NCBI GenBank assembly: GCA_030616775.1
Contig: JAUWWQ010000007.1
Span: 1-64,000 of the forward strand
DNA length: 64,000 bases
Reading direction: 5' to 3'
From: Planctomycetota bacterium
GTDB taxonomy: Bacteria > Planctomycetota > Phycisphaerae > UBA1845
The translations under genes and the position numbers were made by a program. Positions 12,592 to 58,196 of the stretch are shown here, piece after piece. Positions within the stretch are counted from its first letter, which is position 1; each line of letters opens with the position of its first letter. Under the pieces are notes generated by a model. The model did no database searches. It saw nothing but the letters and a program-made list of their open reading frames with translations, and was not told where the DNA came from.

Positions 12592-12721
12592 TCGTACCGT
12601 GCTTCACAAGTTTCGCGACTATCTGAGCCGCATGCTTCAGCTTGCGCGGACATCCGCGCGGGCTGAAGCCCGCGGCTCGGGGTAGGATCATCGTCGTACT
12701 ATCTATGAAACGCCGTACTAG
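12592..12721. repeat. MITE-like element with IS1380-type ends and an internal REP palindrome
   Basis: The left end reads GTACCGTGCTTCACAAG (from 12594). The right end, read on the other strand from 12721, begins CTAGTACGGCGTTTCATAG. Both match the end of the IS1380 relic at 11329. Between them is a 16-bp inverted repeat GCTTCAGCTTGCGCGG / CCGCGCGGGCTGAAGC (12634-12669) that extends into CCGCGGCTC. It has no coding capacity. Confidence 0.6.
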
Positions 12722-15739: not shown

Positions 15740-15810
15740 GCTAGGCCCTTATGCACCCCGCTGCAAACCTGCTCGACGCCACGGCCACCATCAGTGCGAG
15801 CGCACGGAGG

Positions 15811-15940
15811 GGCGACATCGCTGGACCGAGAATCCCTTCACGGTCCTCTGGCAGGTGCCGAGAAAGGATTCTCGGCACAGCGTAATTCTCGGAACAGCGT
15901 ATAAGCGTATAGTCGTATTACTTGTGAAACCCGGTACTAG
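15811..15940. repeat. MITE-like element with double CGAGAA hairpin, left end lost
   Basis: The interior matches the element at 58077: a hairpin around GGACCGAGAATCCC, then a second perfect hairpin GTGCCGAGAA / TTCTCGGCAC. The right end, read on the other strand from 15940, begins CTAGTACCGGGTTTCACAAG, the shared terminal sequence. Only GCGAC of the left end remains. Confidence 0.6.
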
Positions 15941-16165: not shown

Positions 16166-16175
16166 GGTAATCGCC

Positions 16176-16441
16176 ATGTTTGACGCCTTGAGTGAACGTC
16201 TGAACAGCGTTTTCGGCGGCCTTCGGGGTCGGGGGAAGATCACCGAGGAGAACGTCTCCGAGGTGATGCGGGAGATCCGTACGGCCCTGCTGGAAGCTGA
16301 CGTCAACCTGGAGGTCGCCCGGGCCTTCTGCGACGAGGTTCAGCAAAAGGCCATCGGAGCGGAGGTCATAAAGACGCTCAGGCCGGCGGACATGATGGTC
16401 AAAATCGTCCACGACGAGCTGGTACGCCTGATGGGCCCGGT
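16176..16441 (+). repeat. Direct repeat copy 1 of ffh 5' end (copy 2 at 17757-18022)
   Basis: This 266-bp segment starts exactly at the ATG and recurs at 17757-18022. Differences cluster near the two ends, while a central stretch of about 190 bp has only one. It brackets the hicA-hicB-unknown cassette, as expected after single-crossover integration of a circle carrying this piece. Confidence 0.9.
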
Positions 16442-16478
16442 GGGTCAGCACGTTGATGAGGTTCGATGCAGCCAATAA
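16176..16478 (+). pseudogene. Duplicated, truncated ffh 5' end (SRP54 N domain only)
   Basis: The first 266 bp (16176-16441) are about 96% identical to the start of the intact ffh at 17757. The product keeps the four-helix N domain (residues 1-88: MFDALSERLN to DELVRLMGPV) and then runs into 12 unrelated residues before a stop, two bases ahead of hicA. Only one of about 11 differences changes an amino acid (G14 here, R14 in ffh). The G domain and the RNA-binding M domain are missing, so it cannot work as Ffh. It still has the native-looking upstream sequence and might be translated. Confidence 0.85.
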
Positions 16479-16908: not shown

Positions 16909-17772
16909 ATGGAAAACGCCAAACAGTCCAGCAAACCGAACATGAGCTTGCCAAGCCCAGAAGAGCTTGGGACTGGACGCGTCTCGCACGCCGAGACCTG
17001 TCTGTTTTGGCGATGCGCCCGTCATGTTCTGAAAGGGGACCCTGCTTCGGATAACGTAGTCGTCTGCGTTCCGGGCCGGGACGGTGGGAAGTATCCACTG
17101 TTGATAATGACGCTGACGAAAGCCAAGCGACTCATTTGTTGGCCTGTTCTACCGAACCGGGTTTGCGCGCCTGAGGAGGAAGGCAAGCTCCATCTGACCG
17201 ACCACGTAACGCTGCAACTTGAAAGTAGGCGTAGTCATTCCACAGAATTCCGTCCACCTGGCGGAAAGCGGCACCCTCGGAGATGGAAGGTTTGCTCATT
17301 CGATGACAACGGCGTTTCACTTTGGTTTGGATTTGCCGTTCGCCTTTCTGCCATTGAGAACCAGGTCCTCGAGCGACACCAGTGGATACGTATGCCCAAG
17401 TCTAATAATAAGGAAACGAAACGGCGGTCTGATGAGTTCAAACAGTTCTTTGAGAAACTTAGGTTCGTTGATGCCAACGTTCCTGGTGACTATGAGCCGA
17501 CGCCCAATGCCGTCGTCGTTCTCGTTTACATCGTGGACGGCGCAGAAGTAAAGCTGTCGGAAGACCTCTTGCAGCCATTGAATCAGTGGCCGGATGAATT
17601 CTGGGAGCGGATTCCCGAACCCAGAGCATTCAACGTGATTTCAACTGGGCTTGCCGTCGGCGGCGTTCAGCTTGGGCTACTGTTGGGTTTTCCGCCGTAT
17701 AACCTGCGCGAAGACGGCCCCATTCTGGCCACACCGCGCCAACGAAGAACCGAAGCATGTTTGACGCCTTGA
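16909..17772 (+). CDS. Unknown cassette protein between hicB and ffh
   Basis: The 287-residue product starts MENAKQSSKPNMSLPSPEEL with AGAGG 9 nt upstream. It has a cysteine-containing N-terminal part (AETCLFWRCARHVL), basic central sequence (residues 110-190) and a hydrophobic segment near the C-terminus (VISTGLAVGGVQLGLLLG). I do not recognise a family. Its last five codons (Cys-Leu-Thr-Pro-stop) lie over the start of ffh in another frame, so the natural C-terminus may have been lost when the cassette joined ffh. The stop inside ffh makes translational coupling possible. The cassette position beside hicAB suggests accessory cargo, but no function can be given. Confidence 0.7.
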   Translation: MENAKQSSKPNMSLPSPEELGTGRVSHAETCLFWRCARHVLKGDPASDNVVVCVPGRDGGKYPLLIMTLTKAKRLICWPVLPNRVCAPEEEGKLHLTDHVTLQLESRRSHSTEFRPPGGKRHPRRWKVCSFDDNGVSLWFGFAVRLSAIENQVLERHQWIRMPKSNNKETKRRSDEFKQFFEKLRFVDANVPGDYEPTPNAVVVLVYIVDGAEVKLSEDLLQPLNQWPDEFWERIPEPRAFNVISTGLAVGGVQLGLLLGFPPYNLREDGPILATPRQRRTEACLTP

Positions 17773-19184
17773 GTGAACGTCTAAACAGCGTTTTCCGCGG
17801 TCTTCGCGGGCGGGGGAAGATCACCGAGGAGAACGTCTCCGAGGTGATGCGGGAGATCCGTACGGCCCTGCTGGAAGCTGACGTCAACCTGGAGGTCGCC
17901 CGGGCCTTCTGCGACGAGGTGCAGCAAAAGGCCATCGGAGCGGAGGTCATAAAGACGCTCAGGCCGGCGGACATGATGGTCAAGATCGTCCACGACGAGC
18001 TTGTCCGGCTAATGGGCCCGGTTGATCCGAAGATACCGTTCATCTCTCCCGGCCCGACGATCTTGCTGATGGCCGGTCTGCAAGGATCTGGTAAGACGAC
18101 GACCTGCGGAAAGATGGCCAAGCTGCTTTTGGCCCGGGCGAAGCGGCCTCTCATGGTCGCGGCGGACCTGAAACGGCCGGCGGCCATCGACCAGCTCGAG
18201 GTGATCGGGCAGCAGGTTGGCACTCCCGTGTACACCGAGCGGGATCAGCAAAACGCCGTCAAGGTGTGCCGCAACGGGATAGCCCAGGCAAGAAAGACCG
18301 ATCGTGACGTGGTGATTCTGGATACCGCCGGGCGGCTGGCGGTTGACGAGGAGATGATGGACGAGGTCGCCAGGATAGCGACGACCACCAACCCGCAGCA
18401 GATTTACCTTGTCCTCGATGCGATGACCGGCCAGGACGCGGTGAACACCGCGAGGGTATTCAACCAGCGGCTCGAATTGGACGGGATCATCCTCACCAAG
18501 TTCGACAGCGATACGCGCGGCGGGGCTGCCCTTTCCGTCAAACACGTCACCGGCAAGCCGATCAAGTTTGTCGGCATCGGCGAGAAGATGGAGGCCATCG
18601 AGGAGTTTTACCCGGATCGGATCGCCGGGCGAATCCTCGGTATGGGCGATATTCTGACCCTCGTCGAACAGGCTCAAAGACAGTATGACCAGGAGGAAGC
18701 GGCCAAGCTGGAAGCCAAGATGGCATCGGGGAAGTTCGCCCTCGACGACTTTTTGGTTCAGCTCCGCAAGATGAGACAGATGGGGTCGATGAAGGATCTC
18801 ATCAAGAAGATCCCCGGCATGGGTGACATGATGGGGGACATGGACCTCGACGAGGGTGAGATAGTTCGCATGGAGGCGGCCATTCAATCCATGACGCCCA
18901 AGGAAAAGGCCAATCCCAAGATCGTCGATGCGTCGCGTCGGCGCCGGATTGCTCGCGGTGCGGGTTGCGACCCATCGGATGTCAGCCAATTGGTCAAACA
19001 GTTCGAGCCCATGCGCAATATGATGAAGGCAATGAGCGGCCAATCGCTCCCCCAGCGGCTCAAAATGGGGATGCAATTCTCTAAAGCGATGGCCGGAGGT
19101 GGGCTTCCTAGACTCAAAGGATCCTCTACGGCCAGTCGGCGCAGCCTGAGCAAGAAGGACCGTCGGAAGAGACGGAAGCGATAG
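17757..19184 (+). CDS. ffh: Signal recognition particle GTPase Ffh
   Basis: The intact 475-residue Ffh binds 4.5S RNA and signal peptides and docks on FtsY for co-translational membrane targeting. It has the N domain (1-90), the G domain with GLQGSGKTTT (107-116), DTAGRL (189-194) and TKFD (247-250), and a Met-rich M domain (about 300-450) with GDMMGDMDL and RRRRIARGAG. A Lys/Arg tail ends the protein. The ribosome site is weak and its start overlaps the unknown cassette gene, so expression now probably depends on readthrough from the cassette or from the old promoter 1.6 kb upstream. Confidence 0.96.
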   Translation: MFDALSERLNSVFRGLRGRGKITEENVSEVMREIRTALLEADVNLEVARAFCDEVQQKAIGAEVIKTLRPADMMVKIVHDELVRLMGPVDPKIPFISPGPTILLMAGLQGSGKTTTCGKMAKLLLARAKRPLMVAADLKRPAAIDQLEVIGQQVGTPVYTERDQQNAVKVCRNGIAQARKTDRDVVILDTAGRLAVDEEMMDEVARIATTTNPQQIYLVLDAMTGQDAVNTARVFNQRLELDGIILTKFDSDTRGGAALSVKHVTGKPIKFVGIGEKMEAIEEFYPDRIAGRILGMGDILTLVEQAQRQYDQEEAAKLEAKMASGKFALDDFLVQLRKMRQMGSMKDLIKKIPGMGDMMGDMDLDEGEIVRMEAAIQSMTPKEKANPKIVDASRRRRIARGAGCDPSDVSQLVKQFEPMRNMMKAMSGQSLPQRLKMGMQFSKAMAGGGLPRLKGSSTASRRSLSKKDRRKRRKR

Positions 19185-22500: not shown

Positions 22501-24185
22501 ATGAGCAGGCCGAGCAGCTATTCCGGGAGAGCATACGGCTGGCTTCACAACCGGCGTTGACGGTGGCCTCGCTAGTGAGGCTTTGCCGACTCTACGCCGA
22601 GGGCGCCTCCGCCGGTCTCGGCTTTGGCAGCGCTCTAATGTCTGGTCTCGAGGAGCTGGAGTCGCGATTCGGTACGGAGAAGATGCCGGAGGCTGCCTCG
22701 GAGATGGAGGGACTGAGCGAGCAGGTCTGCTTCAACGGGCTTGTCGCCAACTGGGTCCGACAGGTTCAATCGGACTTCTCCCCTACTGAACTGGGTGACT
22801 ATCGATCGGGGGCGACCGATGTTCCAGTTCAATTGACCGGTGAGCTTGCCTGGTCGCTCGAACCCAGAGAGAGTCCCGGTGTTCTGCGTCGAGGTACGGC
22901 TCGCGCCGACGTGAAACGCGTCATCGGCTTCGGCGAGCAACCCCCTGTGGTATTGACGGACCGCATCGTAGTGTATGGTCCGGATGATGTTCTCTCTTGC
23001 CACCGTGCCGATGATGGTGAAGTCCTGTGGAAGGCCGCACTACGACTGCCGGAAACGTTTACGGACGAGGCAGGCATAACATGGTTGGAAGGGGAGGATG
23101 TCCCGCGCCGGGCCGTAGCGGAGGGGCAGACCGCCGTGTTCAACGGTCGCGAGGGACTTTTCGCGGTCGGGCTGGCCACCGGCCGCCGTATCTGGGTCCG
23201 GCCCTACGAGAACGAGCGTGATCCGCGCGATCCTCTGAGCCATGACACGACCATGACAGCAGGCGGTGGGTTGTTGGCCGCGATGCCGAAAGCGGGGCAG
23301 TTGACGTTGATGCGCATGCTTGACGGCTCGACGGTCTGGGAGCGCGATTTGCTCGGCGAACGGGTCGAATACATCTGGATGCTGGGGGACCGGGTGGTTA
23401 CAGTCGACGCGCCGTTTCAGAGAGTACACTTATTCGATCGTACCGACGGTCGATTGGTCAAGCGCGTCTTGTTCGAGCAGCCCGATCCGGAAAACCTGCT
23501 GGTCAGTCTTGTCAATACCGCCGATACCCTCTGTGGTCCCACTATGATCGACAACTCTGAGGGTGTTGTGGGAGTGGATCTGGCCAGCGGTGAGATTGTA
23601 TGGCGGCTACAACTGGAGAAGCCACTCGTTCAGTTGTTCAGGCCGCAGGATGGGTATCTGGGCCTCAGCTTGCTCGGCGGCGACGTACGCATAGTGGACG
23701 GTGCGACAGGTGAGCTTGTCGTGGAGCGGCGGGTGTCGGGTGCTCACGGGGTGATCCGCGGAACGCTGGTCAACGGGACCCTCCTGGTGCAATACTACAC
23801 CCTTCACACCGGGATACGATCCTTCGAAGTGGCTGCGTTAGACGTTGCTACAGACACCGAATTATGGCGCCGCGGCGACCTTCTTCCGTTGTGGCGAATA
23901 GGCAGGCCGTTACGCGTGAACGGTGGGCGGATGCCCGCGTTGATTCAGACCGACGAGCTTGGAACCGACAACGGCAGGACTGTACATCTGGCGATGATCG
24001 ACGTGAGGTCGGGACTCAGTGTCGGCGCCGAGTTGAGACTGCAGTCTGTCGATGAACTCGGTCAATTTAACGGCGATTTCGAGTTGTACGCGATTCCTGG
24101 AATAGCCGTCGTGGGGACCGACACAGGCATTCATGCTCTGCGCATGGGGTCTGCAACCGAGCACACCGAGGGGGTTTCTGAATGA
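19599..24185 (+). CDS. Exported PQQ-type beta-propeller protein with central helical repeats
   Basis: The product is about 1528 residues and begins MKHSGCQGRSLHGR, followed by RRRLHIIVMSAVIAACVVST with ASAQ as a signal-peptide end. Residues of about 60-240 are helical, TPR-like. Two propeller regions follow (roughly 280-700 and 1090-1500). Each has repeated PQQ-blade strings such as DGEVLWKAALRLPE, LATGRRIWVRP and GEIVWRLQLEKP. Between them is a second helical stretch with AYDVLEAIPP and EQAEQLFRESIRLA. Such proteins in planctomycetes are usually periplasmic scaffolds that need not bind PQQ. It heads the long operon and overlaps the next gene by ATGA. Confidence 0.85.
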   Translation: MKHSGCQGRSLHGRCRTRRRLHIIVMSAVIAACVVSTASAQRQRSPRDRRRSSPRLISDSSRNDHLSVVIEPAAPIANLFSRSEEGVARADWKFAIDCLQRIVDEPGASLVPQRDGAPARGMRYESVRRRALQRLKSLPPEGLRAYRLLYDGRAKRLFEHGRAAHDPRRLRVVVDRYLLTRYGDDAADLLASWALDEGRPGEAIRLLADLVDLVPDYDVPRLLIASKLAAAYSLLGREEEAKAVLDAYRAATDAQAQHDEYGVLDSVLTLRPLGLDRGGDPVSWPVVGGTPTREGLMPAVEPTLLEAVPWRSDLPGAVKDAWRRVLHNDATRRPILPVGQLVADNRRLFARTRWGCIALDMEDLKLLWDSGRADTGAPASRSAGQRRSSRQSTGSLNDKGYAFGDYVVGGISLGHGLAMIISREGKGQYTLAERDAGGLDVKRWLPRPLFVTRFVQGARLVAYDVETGRVRWQRGRTGHSDDPLGDVSFQSVPIAVGEALWVPFLRQGDLNVAVLDPEDGALLRTVLLCSLGRSAVPARYALQPALADGMLYVPSGQGLLFAVDTGDYTIRWATQLGPVSDKQRALSSDERGGWLSSPPVVSGGLVLVAPRERDELTAFAAATGEFKWSAGRGDALYIIAADQRRVWLGGRSVYCLSLSNGEMIWSADIEAAPTGRGVLSDELVYVPTADGLLSVRAATGKVLGYAPAPASHGPLGNLLCLDDAMFSINPSCVWKYPDIERTYPLTLKEHEADPSDLVFSVRLAWLEMLRGQPQRAYDVLEAIPPAALEGDAERAKDAAHVRVEALLKMTVESGASRYADAELLTLLEQANRTAPNAMDRLRCTLAIGDLLSTMGRSVEAYRRLWQLGISSDSDQVVPSGDHVGEMARFSVARRLREVAHDLTDEQQSQLGEYTLAQTAAIAKQLGSGARCFRERAQLRAIADLQAPGSTGQQALIELASYHAGGARYEQAEQLFRESIRLASQPALTVASLVRLCRLYAEGASAGLGFGSALMSGLEELESRFGTEKMPEAASEMEGLSEQVCFNGLVANWVRQVQSDFSPTELGDYRSGATDVPVQLTGELAWSLEPRESPGVLRRGTARADVKRVIGFGEQPPVVLTDRIVVYGPDDVLSCHRADDGEVLWKAALRLPETFTDEAGITWLEGEDVPRRAVAEGQTAVFNGREGLFAVGLATGRRIWVRPYENERDPRDPLSHDTTMTAGGGLLAAMPKAGQLTLMRMLDGSTVWERDLLGERVEYIWMLGDRVVTVDAPFQRVHLFDRTDGRLVKRVLFEQPDPENLLVSLVNTADTLCGPTMIDNSEGVVGVDLASGEIVWRLQLEKPLVQLFRPQDGYLGLSLLGGDVRIVDGATGELVVERRVSGAHGVIRGTLVNGTLLVQYYTLHTGIRSFEVAALDVATDTELWRRGDLLPLWRIGRPLRVNGGRMPALIQTDELGTDNGRTVHLAMIDVRSGLSVGAELRLQSVDELGQFNGDFELYAIPGIAVVGTDTGIHALRMGSATEHTEGVSE

Positions 24186-25336
24186 ACCGGACAACGGTCG
24201 CATCGAATGGCGAATGTCGAATAGCAAATAGCGAAACCGGCGCTGACTGGCAGTCGTTATTCGCCATTTCAAAGTACTCTTCAAAGTGGGTTCGGCGGTT
24301 GGCAACGTCGGCCGTTGCCGCTGTCGTACTTTGTGCCGGCTCGGTGGCATGGGCGCAGGAACAGATACCGGAGCGGCTGCCCCAGCAGATTACGCCGGCG
24401 ACCAAATCAGCGATCGAACGAGGCCTTGCCTATCTCACCCGGACCCAGGATCGACAGGGATCGTGGTCCAATCAAGGGCGGTACGGCAAGTATCCGGTCG
24501 CGATGACGGGCCTGGCGGGGTTGGCGTTGCTTATGGACGGCAACACTACGACCCAGGGTCGGTACGCGCCGCAGGTGGATAGGGCAACCAGGTACTTGCT
24601 CCGCTCGGCCACCCAAAACGGTCTGATCGCAAGACCGGAGCACGAAGGGCGACCCATGTTTGGGCACGGGTTTTCAATGTTGTTTCTCAGCCAATTGTAT
24701 GGCATGACCGAGGATCCGACCCGGGCCCAGGAGATCCATGACGTGCTTTCCCGAGCCGTGCGTCTTACCGCCCGAGCCCAGAGTCATCCCGGGGGCTGGT
24801 ACTATACGCCCAATGCCCGCAGCGACGAGGGCTCCGTGACGATCACGCAGGTGCAAGCGCTACGCTCGTGTCGCAACGTGGGCGTAGCCGTACCGAAGGC
24901 CGTGATCAAATCCGCGATGAGGTACTTGGCCGATTCGCAAAACAGCGACGGAGGGATCCGCTACACTGTCCGCCAGCGGATGGGCAACTCCCGACCGGCG
25001 ATCACGGCTGCGGCGGTTTGTTGCTGGTTCAACGCAGGGCAATACGACAGTCCTCGCGCCAAGCGGGCGCTGGAGTTTTGCAAGCCGCTGATCAGGCCGA
25101 ACGGTACGCAAAGCGGACATGACTACTACGCCCATCTGTATCTCGCACAGGCCTTGTATATATCGGACGATCCGTATTGGGACGAGTACTTTCCCAAGCG
25201 GCGACAGTACCTGCTCGGCCGACAGCGGGCTGACGGGTCATGGATGGGAGACGGTGTGGGCGATATTTACGGGACCGCGTTAGCTCTGATCATTCTCCAA
25301 CTCCCGTATAATCAGTTACCGATCATGCAGCAGTGA
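24182..25336 (+). CDS. Exported alpha/alpha-toroid (prenyltransferase/squalene cyclase-repeat) protein
   Basis: The 384-residue protein has a hydrophobic export signal (LATSAVAAVVLCAGSVAWAQ) after an unusual 37-residue leader made largely from an ATTCGCC-type micro-repeat. The mature part carries repeats of the terpene cyclase toroid kind: IERGLAYLTRTQDRQGSWSN, MRYLADSQNSDGGIRY, YLLGRQRADGSWMGDG. The DxDD active-site motif of cyclases is not seen, so it is more likely a structural or binding toroid than an enzyme. The start overlaps the preceding stop (ATGA), which supports translation from 24182. A TTG near 24300 would omit the repeat-derived leader. Confidence 0.82.
   Translation: MNRTTVASNGECRIANSETGADWQSLFAISKYSSKWVRRLATSAVAAVVLCAGSVAWAQEQIPERLPQQITPATKSAIERGLAYLTRTQDRQGSWSNQGRYGKYPVAMTGLAGLALLMDGNTTTQGRYAPQVDRATRYLLRSATQNGLIARPEHEGRPMFGHGFSMLFLSQLYGMTEDPTRAQEIHDVLSRAVRLTARAQSHPGGWYYTPNARSDEGSVTITQVQALRSCRNVGVAVPKAVIKSAMRYLADSQNSDGGIRYTVRQRMGNSRPAITAAAVCCWFNAGQYDSPRAKRALEFCKPLIRPNGTQSGHDYYAHLYLAQALYISDDPYWDEYFPKRRQYLLGRQRADGSWMGDGVGDIYGTALALIILQLPYNQLPIMQQ
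24204..24235. repeat. ATTCGCC-type micro-repeat in the leader of the toroid gene
   Basis: Tandem GAATGGCGAATGTCGAATAG words, followed by CAAATAGCGAA, are translated as part of the N-terminal extension. Related tracts lie at 27423-27489, 39131-39151, 43121-43175, 44355-44402 and 54439-54491. Confidence 0.6.
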
Positions 25337-25391
25337 GGGGTGATAATCATTACAAGCCGCAGGCTTTCCCGGGACGCCGGGATACGGACGT

Positions 25392-25416
25392 CCGCGCGGG
25401 CTGAAGCCCGCGGCTC
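25392..25416. repeat. REP-like palindrome between toroid gene and moxR
   Basis: CCGCGCGGGCTGAAGCCCGC followed by GGCTC forms a strong palindrome in the 109-nt gap. The same unit occurs at 12654, 28303, 54316 (variant) and 56729. Confidence 0.75.
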
Positions 25417-25445
25417 AGTTGTGAGAATACTACTTGGAGTAGACG

Positions 25446-26525
<1,080 letters not shown>

Positions 26526-27509
26526 GGTCCTCAGCAAGATCTCACGACTGGAGCTGCGGGCCCGCCACATTGTCGAGGGGTTTGTCAGCGGTATGCACAA
26601 GAGCCCTTACAAGGGTTTCAGCGTGGAGTTCGCCAGTCATCGTTCCTATGTGCCGGGCGATGACATCCGGCATATTGACTGGCGGGTCTACGGCAAGGCC
26701 GATCGATTCTTCGTCAAGGAGTATGAAGAGGAAACGAATCTGCGCACACACCTGCTGCTGGATTGTTCAGGTTCGATGGCCTACCCGGAGCACCCCGGTA
26801 CGGGGCGCATGAGCAAGTGGGACTATGCGGCCACGCTGGCGGCTTCTCTGGCCCACTTGCTGATATATCAGCAGGATGGCGTCGGGCTGACACTGTTTGA
26901 CAGTGAGGTCCGCCAACAGCTCCCGGTCTCGACAAGCCGGGCGTCGTTGTACACGCTCGCGGCGATGATTGAATCAAACGCTCCGAAGGACAAGACCGAC
27001 CTGAAGGCGCTGTTCCAGCGTCTGTCCAGCAGTATTCCGCGCCGGGGAATGGTCGTCATCCTTTCCGATTTGTTGACTGACGCCGACGATATTATTCGTG
27101 GCCTGCAACGGTTTCGATACGATCAGCACGATGTGCTGGTGTTGCACGTGCTCGATCATGACGAGCTGGAGTTCCCGTTTGCCGACCGCACGCTGTTTGA
27201 AGGGCTCGAAGATGTAGACCTCGAGGTTCTGACCGACCCGCAATCACTGCGCAGCAGCTACCTCGAAGCGCTGCAAACGTTTGTCCGCAAGATGCGCGGC
27301 GTATGTCTGGATCACAAGATCGACTACGCCCTAATCAGCACGGCCGACAGCGTCGATGTCGCCCTGACAACGTTCCTGGCGACTCGGATGCGTCGGCAAC
27401 GAGCCAGGACCTAGGAGAATCGGGAATGGGCGGTAGCGAAATGTGAACGCGAAGAATCTCACTATTCGCCATTCGCTATTTGACATTCAGCATTGTTGAG
27501 TCGTCCCCT

Positions 27510-29957
27510 ATGCCACCAATGCCACCACTGCTTGCTGCCTTTGTCTCACCCGGCCTCTTCTTTGGCGGGGCGGCGGCCGTGGCTGCACCGATTCTAATCC
27601 ACTTGCTGGCCCGGAGGCGGTTCAGGCGGATCCGCTGGGCGGCAATGGACTTTCTGATTCATGCGGAGCGTCGCAACCGGCGGCGGCTGCGGATGGAGGA
27701 GTGGATTCTCCTGGCCCTGCGATGCATGGCCGTTGCTTTTATAGCCGCGATGGTTGCCCGGCCCTTTTTCAAGCCCGCGGGTCTGGCCATGTTGTGGGGC
27801 GGGTCGCAACACACGGAGCGGGTTTTCGTGCTGGATGATTCGTTCAGCATGGCCTACGAGTCGGCGGACGGTACGGTGTTTGACCGGGCCAAGCTAGCGG
27901 TGCGGCGCCTTGTTGAAGGTGTCCGAAGAGAGACACCGGATGACACGGTAACGATTCTACGGGCGTCGGCACCCTCATCGCCCGTGGAATCGGGTACGTA
28001 CCTCAGCGACGTGCAAACGGAGGAGCTGCTGGCACGACTCGATGCCCTGGCACCGTCACAGCGCTCGATTGATCCGGCAACCGTCGTCGAGGGCGTGGTC
28101 GAGATGCTGGAAAACAACCCGGACATCACGAATACGGCTGTCTACATTATCAGCGATTTTCAACGGCATGACTGGGTCCGGGTGGGTGGCCCGGGTCTTC
28201 AGACCTGGGGATCCGACTCGAGACCACGGGGAGAGTCCCCCACCTCTGAAGAGGTGGGCCACCCGTACGATGAGACTCGTCGGTCTGGTACCGTGCGGGA
28301 TTCCGCGCGGGCTAAAGCCCGCGGCTCAGGTACGCAAGCCCGCGGGCCGAGTATTTTGGCGCCGCTGGCGGCGTGGGCGGGAGATGATCGTGGGCTGCAA
28401 ACCGTGCTGATCAACGTCGGGATCGACGACGCGCGCAATCTGGCCGTTGCCGAGCTTAGCCTGGAAGGTGGCCAGCTCGTTGCGGGGGCGACTGGCACCA
28501 TCCGGGCGAAAGTGGGGAACTACGCCAACCGGTCGGTCGAGGACCTGGAGTTAGAGCTTACGGTTGGCAATCTTACCCAGCCGTCTAAGACGCTTCGCGA
28601 GCTGGGCCCGCAACAAACCGCATCTGTCGATTTGGAGGCGGAATTCGTCAGGGCGGGCTTCGAGGCCGTGCGCGTGGAACTTCCTCCTGATGCACTTCCA
28701 ATCGACAACGTCCGGTATGCCGCGGCTCAGGTAGTCAGCGCGATCCGCATCCTGATCGTCAACGGTGAACCGTCGGCGGACAGCTTCGACGATGAAGTGA
28801 CCTTCCTGACCACCGCGATGCGGCCGGAGGGAGAGGTGTTTAGCGGCAACGAGGTCGTTGTAGTTGACGAAACGGGATTCGAAGACGCCAATCTCGCGGG
28901 TTTCCACGTCGTCGTTCTGGCGAACGTGTATCGCCTCAGCGACCCGGCCATCGAGTTGCTGGAGCAGTTCGTGCGGCAGGGTGGCGGGTTGCTCTTTTTC
29001 CTGGGCGATCAGGTGGACGCCGACCTGTACAACGCCGCTTTCTACCGAGACGGCGAGGGAGTGTTGCCCGCCGAGTTGACCGAGGTCATCCGTGGCACCG
29101 GCGTATCGCATCTGATCGTAGCAGACAGGTTGCACTCTGTCATGCGCGGCCTCAGCAGCGAAGGTGATCCCCTGGGGATCTCTCAGATCGCATTTTTCGA
29201 GTACTTCGGATGCGTGCCATTCGATGTCACCGCGGATGATCCCATTGATGACTCGGGGGGGGGATCGTCCGTGAGCAGCGATAATGTTGAGGCACGGCGC
29301 AGCCGTCCCGGGCGTGTCATCGCCAGGTTTGACGACCCCGACGAGCACCCTGCCATGGTCGAGCGTCGGTTCGGGCGTGGAAGAGTGGTGCTCATCACCA
29401 CGGCCGCTGACAAGGAGTGGCACCAATGGCCGGATCACCCCACGTTCCTTCCGATCATGATGGAGCTGGTGCGTCATGTGGCTCATCAGGGCCGCACCGG
29501 TACGCAGCACTGGGTGGGCGACACGATCGAGCTTCCGCTCGACCCGGCCGTATTCGGGCCGGACAGCGTAGTGCGCACCCCCGCCTACCCGAACGAGCGC
29601 GAGGTGGGGCTGACCGCCGCCCCGGCGAGCGATGGACGAGGACTGAGGTTGAGCTGGGAGCACACGGACACGGCCGGAATGTACCAGTTTGTGCTTCCAC
29701 GGCACGAGGGCGGCGAAACCGTGAGGTTGGTGGCGGTCAACGTGGACCCGCAGGAGAGTGATCTGGCCGTGGCCGCGGAAGATGAGCTTCGCCAGGCCAT
29801 AAGCGATGTACCGTTCGACTACGTCAACGGTGTCGACAAGCTCACCGGGGCCGCCGGTGGAGCTCGAACGGAGCTGTGGCGACTTTTCCTGTTGGCGGCG
29901 GCTGCGGTGCTTCTGACGGAACAGAGTCTGGCCTGGTGGTGGGGCCGGAGGCGCTAA
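27510..29957 (+). CDS. BatA-like membrane protein with vWA and GATase-like domains, carrying an in-frame repeat insertion
   Basis: The 815-residue protein starts MPPMPPLLAAFVSPGLFFGG with the BatA N-terminal double membrane segment (HLLARRRFRRIRWAAMDFL, then LRMEEWILLALRCMAVAFIA). A vWA domain with MIDAS FVLDDSFSMAY follows, then CARDB-like beta sequence. A class I glutamine amidotransferase-like fold (ILIVNGEPSADSF to GGGLLFFLGD) has no catalytic Cys seen. A C-terminal membrane helix ends the protein. Residues of about 222-285 come from several GC palindromes inserted in the vWA region (28179-28350) without breaking the frame. The ATG at 27510 is chosen over a TTG at 27480 that lies in a micro-repeat. 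Confidence 0.85.
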   Translation: MPPMPPLLAAFVSPGLFFGGAAAVAAPILIHLLARRRFRRIRWAAMDFLIHAERRNRRRLRMEEWILLALRCMAVAFIAAMVARPFFKPAGLAMLWGGSQHTERVFVLDDSFSMAYESADGTVFDRAKLAVRRLVEGVRRETPDDTVTILRASAPSSPVESGTYLSDVQTEELLARLDALAPSQRSIDPATVVEGVVEMLENNPDITNTAVYIISDFQRHDWVRVGGPGLQTWGSDSRPRGESPTSEEVGHPYDETRRSGTVRDSARAKARGSGTQARGPSILAPLAAWAGDDRGLQTVLINVGIDDARNLAVAELSLEGGQLVAGATGTIRAKVGNYANRSVEDLELELTVGNLTQPSKTLRELGPQQTASVDLEAEFVRAGFEAVRVELPPDALPIDNVRYAAAQVVSAIRILIVNGEPSADSFDDEVTFLTTAMRPEGEVFSGNEVVVVDETGFEDANLAGFHVVVLANVYRLSDPAIELLEQFVRQGGGLLFFLGDQVDADLYNAAFYRDGEGVLPAELTEVIRGTGVSHLIVADRLHSVMRGLSSEGDPLGISQIAFFEYFGCVPFDVTADDPIDDSGGGSSVSSDNVEARRSRPGRVIARFDDPDEHPAMVERRFGRGRVVLITTAADKEWHQWPDHPTFLPIMMELVRHVAHQGRTGTQHWVGDTIELPLDPAVFGPDSVVRTPAYPNEREVGLTAAPASDGRGLRLSWEHTDTAGMYQFVLPRHEGGETVRLVAVNVDPQESDLAVAAEDELRQAISDVPFDYVNGVDKLTGAAGGARTELWRLFLLAAAAVLLTEQSLAWWWGRRR
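28179..28350. repeat. Composite palindromic repeat inside the BatA-like gene
   Basis: Three hairpins follow one another: CCCGGGTCTTCAGACCTGGG, CCCACCTCTGAAGAGGTGGG, and the REP-like CCGCGCGGGCTAAAGCCCGC-GGCTC at 28303-28327. GGGTGGCCC and GGGCCACCC arms bracket the first two. The reading frame stays open and encodes a Gly/Arg/Ser-rich linker. Confidence 0.75.
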
Positions 29958-29964
29958 ATCCACA

Positions 29965-32454
29965 ATGTTGTATCTACCGTTGACAATCTTGCCCCTGCTC
30001 GCCGGCCCGGTCACGCGCGACCAGCAGGAGTTCGTGACCGAGCTTCGCCACATGCCCGAGGGTTGGCCGGCGGTTGCGGGTTTCGCCCTGGTTGCCGGCA
30101 TTTGCTGGGCGGTCGTGTGGATGTACCGCCGTGAAGGGCGTATCGGAGCGTCCTTGTGGGTGCGGATGACTCTGGCGGTCGTGCGCTGTGCCGTATTTGT
30201 GACATTGGCTGTCATTCTGCTGGAGCCGGTGCGCGTGCGAATCCTTCGCCGTTGGGTCGACTCGTACACGGTTGTTCTGACCGACGACTCATCGAGCATG
30301 GGTCTGGCGGACGCATACCGCGACGAATCGGCCGCCCAACGCGTCGCACAAGTGTTCGGCACGTCGGACTTGTCGCCCATTCGCCGCACAAGTGTGGTCG
30401 AACAGGTTTTCAATCAAAGCGATAAGAAGTTTCTGCGAGACCTTGCGGCCAACAACCGGCTAAAGCTCTACACTTTCAGCGATGAACCGCGGCTACTGGC
30501 GACCATCCGGGCGACCCGCGAGAGCAGAGTCGGGCGTGCCGACACCGGCGACAATACTCAAACACTGCTAGGTGTCGACGAGGTTCCGACCGAAATGGCC
30601 GGGACGGGACCCGCCACCAACATTGAACGTGCCGTGCATCGTGCCGTCGAGTCGCTGGGCAGCGCGCCGGTGGCGGCGGTGGTCGTTTTCAGCGACGGCG
30701 GGTTTAACCAGGGGGCTACGGCCGAGGAGACCGGGCGCTACGCGCGCGATCGCCGGCTTCCGGTCCATGTGATCGGGGTGGGCGATCCCTCAAGCCCGCA
30801 GAACGTACGCGTCGCGGAGATTCTTGCGCCCCCCAACGCGTTTCAGCAGGACCCCTTTCCTGTTTCCGTCCGCCTTTCGGCCGAGGGTCTCGAAGGGCGA
30901 ACCGTTCACGTCCGGCTTCGCGAGCGGAACGACACCGAGGGGGGACCGGGAGGTATTGTGGACCAGCGAAACGTGCGCGTCGGCCCCGGCGGGGCGATCG
31001 AGCCGGTGACATTCGAGCGCCGCCAGAACAGTGTCGGCCGTTTCGTCTACACCGTTGAGGTGCCGGTTCTCGAAGGAGAGTCGGTCGCCGACGACAACAG
31101 CAAACAAACGACGGTAAACGTGATCGACTCGCGCACGCGGGTTCTTGTGGTCGCCGGCGGCCCGAGCTGGGACTATCGTTTTGTTTCCCGGCTATTGGAG
31201 CGTGACGAGACGTTCGACGTAAGCTGTTGGCTGCAGTCGGCGGATTTGAGCGCCGTGCGCGACGGCAACACCATCGTCGATCACCTTCCCGCGACGGCCG
31301 AGGAGTTGTTCGAATATGACGTGATCGTGCTGATGGATCCCGACAAAGAGGAGTTCAATGAGTCATGGTGTCGGCTTGTTGACACTCTGGTGACGGAATA
31401 CGGCGGTGGGCTCTTGCTCACCGCGGCCCGCCCCCAGACGCCTTCCTTCATGCGTGACCGGTCGCTGAAACCTTTGCACGACCTGCTCCCGGTTACGCTC
31501 GATCCGGAGGCCGATCTGCTCTTGAACGAGATCGGGCACTATCAGCTTTCCGGCTCAGCGATGGCCATCCCGTCGACGTCCTACGGGCATCCGGTAATGA
31601 AGCAGGCTGATAACCCGGTTTCGACAAAGCTGGCCTGGCAGGGAATCGGTGACATCCATTGGCACTATCCGGTTCTGCGTGAGAAGCCCGTGGCTACGGT
31701 GCTGATGCGCCACGGCAACCCGCGCATGCGGAACTCGTTCGGCGAGCATGTCCTGGCGGCGGTACAGTTCGTGGGCGCGGGACGCACCGGGTTTCTGGGT
31801 TTCGATGGGACCTGGCGGTGGCGGCGCCATGGAGTGGAACTGTTCGATCGGTTCTGGGTCCAACTGATCCGCTATCTGGCGGAAGGCAAGCTGCTGGGCG
31901 GCACGAAACGGGGCATGCTTCTGACCGAGAGCGATCAGTACTCTATCGGCGACGCCGTTACGGTGACCGCCCGCCTCTTCGACAGGCAATACAAGCCGCT
32001 CAAGGACGATCAGGTCATCGCTCAGCATCGCGTCGACGGGGACAAGGGGGATTTCGTGATGACCGCACTGCGAGACCGGCCCGGGTGGTTTGAGGGGCGG
32101 TTCGTCCCCGACCGCACGGGCAGCTATCGCCTCAGCCTGAAGATGGCCGACCCGGACTCGAGCGACCTGATGGAGATTGTGCGGGAGATCAGGGTCACCC
32201 GGCCCAATATCGAGATTCTCCGCCCGCAGATGGATCGTGACAAGCTGATGGCCCTTGCCGAGCAGTCCCACGGTGGGCGTTACTTCGAGGTGGACGAGGC
32301 CGCCAGCGTACCGGCCTTGATTCCCGATCTTCATGAGGAGATACCGATCCGATCGCGTCCCACGGCGCTGTGGGACAACTGGAAGACGCTCACACTGCTG
32401 CTCGTCCTTCTGTCGGTTGAGTGGGGTGTGCGCAAATGGAATCGTTTGTTGTGA
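29965..32454 (+). CDS. Membrane protein with vWA and GATase-like domains (BatB/C-like)
   Basis: The 829-residue protein has three N-terminal and one C-terminal hydrophobic segments (AVAGFALVAGICWAVVWMY, VVRCAVFVTLAVILLEPV, LTLLLVLLSVEWGV). Its vWA domain has a MIDAS-type VVLTDDSSSMGLA and later AAVVVFSDGGFNQG. A beta-sandwich segment is followed by a GATase-like domain beginning VLVVAGGPSWDYRFVSRLLE with DVIVLMDPDKEEF. It lies 7 nt after the BatA-like gene and has the same domain order, so the two probably arose by duplication and work together at the membrane with MoxR. Confidence 0.85.
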   Translation: MLYLPLTILPLLAGPVTRDQQEFVTELRHMPEGWPAVAGFALVAGICWAVVWMYRREGRIGASLWVRMTLAVVRCAVFVTLAVILLEPVRVRILRRWVDSYTVVLTDDSSSMGLADAYRDESAAQRVAQVFGTSDLSPIRRTSVVEQVFNQSDKKFLRDLAANNRLKLYTFSDEPRLLATIRATRESRVGRADTGDNTQTLLGVDEVPTEMAGTGPATNIERAVHRAVESLGSAPVAAVVVFSDGGFNQGATAEETGRYARDRRLPVHVIGVGDPSSPQNVRVAEILAPPNAFQQDPFPVSVRLSAEGLEGRTVHVRLRERNDTEGGPGGIVDQRNVRVGPGGAIEPVTFERRQNSVGRFVYTVEVPVLEGESVADDNSKQTTVNVIDSRTRVLVVAGGPSWDYRFVSRLLERDETFDVSCWLQSADLSAVRDGNTIVDHLPATAEELFEYDVIVLMDPDKEEFNESWCRLVDTLVTEYGGGLLLTAARPQTPSFMRDRSLKPLHDLLPVTLDPEADLLLNEIGHYQLSGSAMAIPSTSYGHPVMKQADNPVSTKLAWQGIGDIHWHYPVLREKPVATVLMRHGNPRMRNSFGEHVLAAVQFVGAGRTGFLGFDGTWRWRRHGVELFDRFWVQLIRYLAEGKLLGGTKRGMLLTESDQYSIGDAVTVTARLFDRQYKPLKDDQVIAQHRVDGDKGDFVMTALRDRPGWFEGRFVPDRTGSYRLSLKMADPDSSDLMEIVREIRVTRPNIEILRPQMDRDKLMALAEQSHGGRYFEVDEAASVPALIPDLHEEIPIRSRPTALWDNWKTLTLLLVLLSVEWGVRKWNRLL

Positions 32455-54273: not shown

Positions 54274-54543
54274 GATCTCTCCTACGTTGAATATCCGCCG
54301 TTAGGTACCGAGCAAGCCGCGGGCTTAAGCCCGTGCGGAATCCGCGCAGGAATTAACCTGCGACCGGTTGCTACCTGTCCGTCCAGCACGGTTGCTGAGG
54401 CACACATGATCGTATGATCGCGGCGGTGTGTCAAAGGCCAAATGGCTGGCGGCGAATGGCGATTTGCGGTCTACAAATAGCGGTTGCGAATCGGAACGGC
54501 TTGGCTATCCTGGATCTCCCGCTGGTAAGGCAGGAGACGTTTC
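54274..54543. other. Divergent intergenic region with palindromes
   Basis: It contains a REP-like palindrome GCCGCGGGCTTAAGCCCGTG-CGG (54316-54338), a second hairpin CGCAGG/ACCTGCG (54345-54362) and an ATTCGCC-type micro-repeat (54439-54491). No gene is seen. Confidence 0.6.
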
Positions 54544-56663: not shown

Positions 56664-56753
56664 GAGCCGCAGACTTCAGTCTGCGCGGACTGCCGATAGC
56701 CATTGACACTGACTCGGGGAAAGTGAATCCGCGCGGGCTAAAGCCCGCGGCTC
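56664..56753. repeat. Paired REP-like palindromes (BIME-like)
   Basis: GAGCCGCAGACTTCAGTCTG-CGCGG (56664-56688) and CCGCGCGGGCTAAAGCCCGC-GGCTC (56729-56753) are hairpins in inverted orientation with outer arms GAGCCGC/GCGGCTC. They lie in the gap between two minus-strand genes. Confidence 0.75.
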
Positions 56754-58050: not shown

Positions 58051-58196
58051 AGCATCCCCGGCATTGGCGCATCCAACTAGTGCCTTGTTTCATAAAAAAC
58101 GCGACTATCATCGCTGGACCGGGAATCCCTTCTCGGTCCTCTGGCAAGTGCCGAGAAAGGATTCTCGGCACAGCGTAGCATCCCCGGCGTTGGCGC
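58051..58196. repeat. MITE-like element flanked by 20-bp direct repeats
   Basis: The element (58077-58176) starts CTAGTGCCTTGTTTCATAAA and contains hairpins at 58116-58139 (GGACCGGGAA/TTCTCGGTCC) and 58148-58171 (GTGCCGAGAA/TTCTCGGCAC). A 20-bp imperfect direct repeat AGCATCCCCGGCATTGGCGC flanks it, at 58051-58070 and 58177-58196. The left copy lies in the start region of the GH10-like gene. Confidence 0.65.

Follow-up and report, generated by a model that had tools for sequence, protein, structure and literature searches.

The BatA-like gene of this planctomycete DNA raises the question of whether dispersed palindromic repeats have entered a conserved protein gene, are translated there, and have taken on a function. 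We analysed the window (the whole stretch of 64,000 nt), for which the original prediction had described three consecutive hairpins inside the gene, with the frame kept through them, encoding a Gly/Ser/Arg linker of about 60 residues.

Two palindromic elements lie within the BatA-like gene

The gene stands in a cluster with the order MoxR - DUF58 - BatA - vWA, and its protein had matches in 56 of the 60 genomes searched (own genome included; some matches are not orthologues). The following features were located in it.

27510..29957, plus strand: BatA-like / vWA protein gene, 815 aa; Pfam BatA (PF07584) 1.5e-15 and VWA_2 (PF13519) 2.9e-6; frame open across the inserts
28164..28360, plus strand: expanded linker, predicted disordered, between a vWA strand (residues 208-215) and a helix (residues 284-290), from AlphaFold and length comparison
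28184..28264, plus strand: element A, an imperfect inverted repeat of 81 nt made up of two hairpins (GGGTGGCC...GGCCACCC); residues 225-252
28303..28329, plus strand: element B in its short-tip form B1, a 27-nt hairpin CCGCGCGGGCTAAAGCCCGCGGCTCAG; residues 265-274, reading ARAKARGS
28336..28345, plus strand: additional, incomplete copy of the B stem (AAGCCCGCGG); repeat family D7

The palindromes were present as described, but their number and arrangement had to be revised: element A, whose arms are 27 nt each and 81% complementary, itself holds two small hairpins, and B follows it. The linker does lie in the vWA region, but positions 28184-28345 touch 55 residues (225-279), and Gly, Ser or Arg account for 26 of the 56 residues in the stretch starting GGPGLQ.

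Element B belongs to a dispersed REP-like family

We searched for both elements in the own genome (G000, 4.45 Mb) and in relatives, which include two members of the same genus, G001 and G002, the latter being the nearest relative. The results showed 91 copies of the 18-nt heart of B in G000 (at most 1 mismatch) and 0 with the reversed-pattern control, which rules out chance hairpins; simple slippage is ruled out by the match to a dispersed repeat family. The consensus of 89 copies gave a conserved 27-nt core, CCGCGCGGGCTnAAGCCCGCGGCTCRG, and with this core B falls among REP-like palindromes, which are about 20-40 nt long and mostly intergenic. Of 100 genomes searched, 45 carried exact copies of B, G000 among them, with a maximum of 194 per genome. 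Element A is rarer: its right half had 5 matches in G000 and occurred in 35 of the 100 genomes, own included (both at up to 2 mismatches, control 0), with exact matches also in other genomes (control 0). The linker is GC-rich and rich in Gly, Ser and Arg, and the G001 loop is likewise long without a recognised repeat, as would be expected of a generic low-complexity linker grown by slippage or local duplication, with its repeat likeness reflecting base composition. However, given the 91-copy family matched by B and the exact A half-units in other genomes, each against a control of 0, we consider such an origin very unlikely.

Four further places in the window had been said to carry the same REP-like unit between genes, and all four were recovered in gaps between long ORFs.

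12647..12678, plus strand: B copy between long ORFs (match at 12658); a mechanical 109-aa ORF overlaps it
25385..25416, plus strand: B copy in the intergenic space directly before the MoxR gene (match at 25396); common to G002
54317..54334, minus strand: B copy between long ORFs, 1 mismatch
56722..56753, plus strand: B copy between long ORFs (match at 56733), matching the B family

A codon-score classifier could be applied to 87 of the 89 placed B copies. Thirteen lay inside same-strand, same-phase open coding sequence, 2 on the same strand in another phase and 3 between opposite strands, while 18 had coding sequence on one side only and 51 on neither. As the same classifier assigned 872 of 2000 random window positions to the same-strand, same-phase class, B is depleted in genes, and the copies within genes mostly keep the frame. 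The copy of B in BatA, where the left flank is repeat-derived, was missed by this classifier.

The linker is longer than in relatives outside the genus

Loop lengths were compared in a MAFFT alignment of 30 proteins, taken from those 30 of the 60 searched genomes (own included) whose matches were returned as loci. The loop stretch comprised 99 residues in G000, 86 in G002 and 80 in G001, compared with 50-63 residues in every one of the 27 relatives from outside the genus, in support of an insertion. A second count, from SDFQ to the next strand, covered those 29 of 70 loci that matched the search expression, in genomes largely those of the MAFFT alignment, and gave 31-44 residues in 27 relatives outside the genus, 61 in G001 and 67 in G002. 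The G000 linker measures 80 residues on this scale, via the 13-residue difference between G000 and G002, and without the 27 residues of A and the 9 of B it would measure 44, as much as the longest linker among these relatives. Judged by these lengths, A and B are insertions in BatA, with neither an empty site nor a target-site duplication seen within the genus. Because the 61-residue loop of G001 contains no recognisable repeat, the loop is variable anyway, and some of the extra length may be older than A and B.

The linker is predicted to loop out of the vWA fold

The AlphaFold model of BatA had a mean pLDDT of 81.9, with values below 50 at residues 226-277 and above 90 over most of the vWA core. 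The inserted linker is therefore predicted to be disordered and to loop out of the vWA fold, the point for which structure prediction had been suggested as a check. Since a comparably long loop occurs in only 2 of 39 aligned relatives (G001 and G002), the disorder is a prediction from little data, and the low pLDDT may partly reflect the scarcity of long-loop relatives. A PDB fold search with the model returned GH42-type hydrolases, CARDB domains and partial others, with TM-scores (query length) of at most 0.22 among the matches listed, and was uninformative.

The insert is kept in frame and evolves near-neutrally in the sister species

We then compared the locus with G002, in which the DNA is 92% identical here and the BatA protein 95% identical. 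G002 carries A and B at the orthologous place in BatA, but the inner 36 nt of A are absent there, and B has the 48-nt long-tip form B2 in place of the short-tip B1 of G000. Over about 6.8 kb (~24,232 to 31,057), the only gaps between the two species were of 36, 24 and 21 nt, all within the BatA linker (the 24 nt aligned as 8 + 16 and the 21 nt as 6 + 15); just beyond this otherwise gap-free span, gaps of 21 and 1 nt lie near the start of the ORF at 24182-25336. The presence of A and B at the same place in a separate assembly also bears on a possible assembly error: the window comes from a metagenome-assembled genome in 108 contigs, but with the sister species in agreement we regard this explanation as negligible.

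The dN/dS ratio against G002 was 0.071 upstream of the linker (217 codons), 0.627 in the linker (38 codons) and 0.142 downstream (535 codons). Against G001, it was 0.13 and 0.173 outside the linker, where dS is nearly saturated, and no value was obtained within it. Because dN/dS is low on both sides and the linker indels are multiples of 3, BatA seems to be read through the insert and is probably translated through the palindromes as a protein loop. The open ORF, the purifying selection on both sides and the indel lengths uphold the claim that the frame is kept.

The same comparison bears on whether the hairpins act in mRNA or DNA, as a terminator-like or stabilising structure, in supercoiling or as a protein-binding site, with the coding frame incidental. 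The RNA fold of 28179-28350 is very stable (-95.6 kcal/mol, z = -3.69, with 0 of 200 shuffles as good), and an action on RNA has been suggested for REPs elsewhere (PMC3733652). However, the G002 copy of A is missing its inner 36 nt, the B tip there is a different one, and every indel keeps the protein frame, which makes a role of this kind improbable.

The insert might also have been recruited as a charged Gly/Ser/Arg linker with a selected function, such as a tether, an interaction or regulation of the vWA domain. It has been kept in two species at 95% protein identity, and its dN/dS is below 1. On the other side, the linker ratio of 0.63 on 38 codons contrasts with 0.07-0.14 around it, the linker has 80 residues in one sister species and 67 in the other, the inner 36 nt of A were lost in G002 or gained in G000, and the loop is predicted to be disordered. 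Recruitment accordingly seems unlikely to us, though slightly less so than a nucleic-acid signal. The original prediction had spoken of a repeat adopted as coding sequence; the in-frame insertion is supported, but the near-neutral evolution of the linker and its shifting length make the word "adopted" too strong.

We consider it highly probable that the REP-like elements A and B entered a loop at the surface of the vWA domain with the frame kept, are translated as a disordered linker and are tolerated. The insertion would have taken place in the common ancestor of G000 and G002. Only frame-keeping, stop-free insertions would survive, and for this reason the element would be translated as a disordered linker. 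We infer from sequence that the protein is made and that the insert is neutral for its function. The best reading of A and B is as tolerated selfish palindromes, with no sign of an adopted function.

The hairpin tip differs between orthologous sites

The long form of B is also dispersed; it is 48 nt in length and differs from B in the tip. We found 16 long-tip matches in G000 and 31 in G002 (E <= 0.01, the query's own place included; the last few are weak or partial) and none in G001 at E <= 0.01. Among units with distinct flanks, nearly all from G000 and G002 DNA, the tip was 4 nt in 95, 25 nt in 32 and of other length in 3. Distinct units from other genera comprised 30 short-tip units in G030 loci, all chosen for holding them, 3 short-tip units elsewhere and 0 long-tip units. 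The CysRS residues derived from a long-tip unit gave three weak tblastn matches in other genera (G047, G019 and G013; E 6.5e-4 to 9.8e-4), and because of these the long-tip unit may exist outside the genus.

Of the 30 long-tip loci of G002, 14 matched G000 DNA over at least 150 bases, and 12 of these were aligned as orthologous pairs; L346 and L349, which match on one side of the unit only, were left out. In 6 of the 12 pairs, the G000 unit was short-tipped and its G002 counterpart long-tipped, the two differing by exactly 21 nt, as follows.

Tip-switched pairs (G002/G000), each with the 21-nt difference: L335/L126, L338/L071, L341/L074, L351/L111, L352/L147, L358/L070

Four further pairs had a long tip in both species (one alignable on one side only), and two (L332/L063 and L344/L123) were rearranged or doubled and were counted neither as switched nor as conserved. 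With BatA included, the tip was switched at 7 of 13 orthologous sites, which is not a rate: G002 loci were chosen for a long tip and most G000 loci for holding a unit, so the count establishes that tips differ in place and gives neither frequency nor direction. In the L351/L111 pair, the same altered stem (GCAGGC/GCCTGC) is found in both species with different tips, indicating inheritance of the stem and a change confined to the tip.

At least three of the switched sites are in genes, among them BatA, GatB (a short-tip unit in G000 and a long-tip unit in G002 at the same place) and a YfbK-type vWA protein. An M56-peptidase-type gene is probably another switched site in coding sequence, with less certainty that the unit itself is coding, and three switched sites are surrounded by short ORFs only. 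In ThiD2-ThiE, two short-tip units in one species face one long-tip unit in the other. The frames of the BatA, GatB, YfbK-type, M56-type and ThiD2-ThiE genes are open in both species.

On balance, we lean towards hairpin-tip switching in place, in which an orthologous stem exchanges a 4-nt tip (TNAA) and a 25-nt tip with its own palindrome (TCCCGATAGATCGGGATTCCATTCC and relatives), always by exactly 21 nt, or 7 codons. Micro-conversion from another copy might bring the exchange about, or a small palindrome might insert itself in the loop.

Element B lies in frame in other conserved genes

We performed a Pfam scan of 18 ORFs that span a B copy, besides BatA, and 2 of them had no Pfam family. 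The others include CysRS, GatB, AlaRS, ThiD2-ThiE, a molybdenum hydroxylase subunit, the YfbK-type vWA protein, a UvrD-type helicase, a glycosyltransferase and a TlyA/FtsJ-type methyltransferase. In several, the unit lies near the N-terminus or outside the matched domain, which leaves coding uncertain there.

The GatB insert corresponded to 14 gap positions against PDB 3al0, and the stretch was exactly 50 aa, free of any insert, in 24 of 28 relatives outside the genus, compared with 64 in G000; the exceptions were three relatives with 53-54 residues and G038 with 79. CysRS of G000 carries two short-tip B copies and one long-tip copy, and its stretch had 115 residues against 91-103 in 26 of 29 relatives; the comparison with G002 is limited, as the match ends at residue 274 and the G002 stretch includes 100 N. 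Two other genomes also have additions in the CysRS loop, G011 a B-coded peptide of its own (L169) and G015 another insert (L172), and the loop may perhaps be an insertion hotspot. Compared with the human enzyme (4xem), AlaRS (L019 and L121 on G000 contig C56) showed three large inserts, one of them with B, and by arithmetic L019 and L121 are parts of one AlaRS frame with two B copies. The insert in the TlyA/FtsJ-type methyltransferase matched a 12-residue gap against a solved structure, and in the YfbK-type protein B falls within the YfbK_C match. For the molybdenum hydroxylase subunit, the B-coded peptide gave no clean gap against PDB 1rm6.

In G030, the genome of another genus with 194 exact B copies, 30 copies were examined and ten ORFs scanned. 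Judged from the Pfam matches, B sits in frame inside a match or between two of them in ThiC, UvrD-type helicase, IleRS-like and galactokinase-like genes. BatA is one of several genes with an in-frame B and not a lone example. Separately, an open frame at L016:1110-2600 holds five tandem B-like units (RAAGFSLRGES or variants) before a TPR-like protein, where coding is uncertain.

A Y1_Tnp gene flanked by related palindromes is a possible mover

A and B would have moved by transposition, perhaps with a tyrosine HuH transposase acting in trans. One Y1_Tnp (RAYT-like) gene of G000 (L104, minus strand of contig C88, 1396-1917) has on its flanks, at 1175, 1931 and 2061, palindromes CCGAGCCGCGGGCGCCAGCCCGCGGAC, which are related and not identical to B, with CCGAGCCGCGGGC (13 nt) in common. 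This arrangement resembles RAYT / TnpA-REP systems, but such units flank the gene at only L104 among 8 Y1_Tnp loci scanned (<=5 mismatches), and they differ from B by 5 mismatches; B itself flanked the Y1_Tnp gene at none of these 8 loci. At L102, a 2-mismatch B lies about 1.4 kb from the Y1_Tnp gene. The L104 gene is a possible mover of the B family.

Other repeats were observed in the window. A 69-nt dispersed repeat of another family, with GAGAATCC/GGATTCTC arms, occurs at 15816-15884 and 58109-58177 (96% identical), and a 272-nt direct duplication at 16175-16446 and 17756-18027 (95% identical, 1581 nt apart). At 12594-12719 and 15808-15885 the window ceases to be collinear with G002; dispersed repeats lie at these breaks and match places scattered over G002, as if the repeats mediated rearrangement; the order in G002 may be unreliable because it contains runs of N.

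Relation to known palindromic elements

Palindromic elements in reading frames were described in Rickettsia (Ogata et al. 2000 and later). Delihas 2007 (PMC2229807) gives them in 19 reading frames and reports that guanylate kinase carrying such an element (RPE) is produced as an active protein with an altered affinity for its substrate. Like the RPEs described there, B is dispersed and found both between genes and in frame in conserved protein genes. By their published description, the RPEs are 105-146 bp long and Rickettsia-specific, whereas the present units are 27, 48 and 81 nt, occur in Phycisphaerae and show tip exchange. Titles cited in PMC2229807 also point to palindromes with coding potential in Wolbachia and Methanocaldococcus.

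REPs inside ORFs of many species were reported by Di Nocera et al. 2013 (PMC3733652), a study that names tRNA synthetases, UvrA and UvrD/REP helicase among the hosts. Its GTAG/CGTC super-families are short high-copy palindromes, mostly intergenic with some in frame; intragenic GTAG repeats are most numerous in Opitutus terrae, a member of the PVC superphylum, Rickettsia RPEs are mentioned, and REP families are placed in Planctomycetes. B is likewise short, high in copy number and mostly intergenic, with some copies in tRNA synthetase genes. Unlike in these super-families, neither GTAG nor CGTC is a constant tag at an end of the B core (87 copies). GTAG occurred within 12 nt of 13 of the 87 copies (4.5 expected), CGTC of 4 (10.3 expected) and its complement GACG of 16 (10.3 expected). 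In a subset of copies, GTAG stands just downstream at positions 23-26, and these are possibly a tagged subfamily.

The main text of RepRanger 2025 (PMC12306157) contains none of the words 'planctomycet', 'intragenic', 'within genes' or 'coding sequence' in a word search, and within the open-licence literature, in the portions available, there was no report beyond PMC3733652 of in-frame palindromes in planctomycetes or Phycisphaera or of tip exchange in REPs. B combines a dispersed high-copy palindrome (91 copies against 0) with in-frame insertion in conserved genes (BatA, GatB, CysRS). Such in-frame palindromes are already known from Rickettsia and REP-rich genomes, and what is new here is the family, the host group and the 21-nt tip exchange.

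These findings place palindromes in presumably essential translation genes of Phycisphaerae (CysRS, AlaRS and GatB, with an IleRS-like gene in a relative). The orthologous filled, empty and tip-switched sites form a natural series on element movement and protein tolerance. If true, tip switching would amount to a cassette exchange on a hairpin that lengthens several proteins without breaking the frame, and a switch of 7 codons would be a concrete, testable mechanism for changing protein length.
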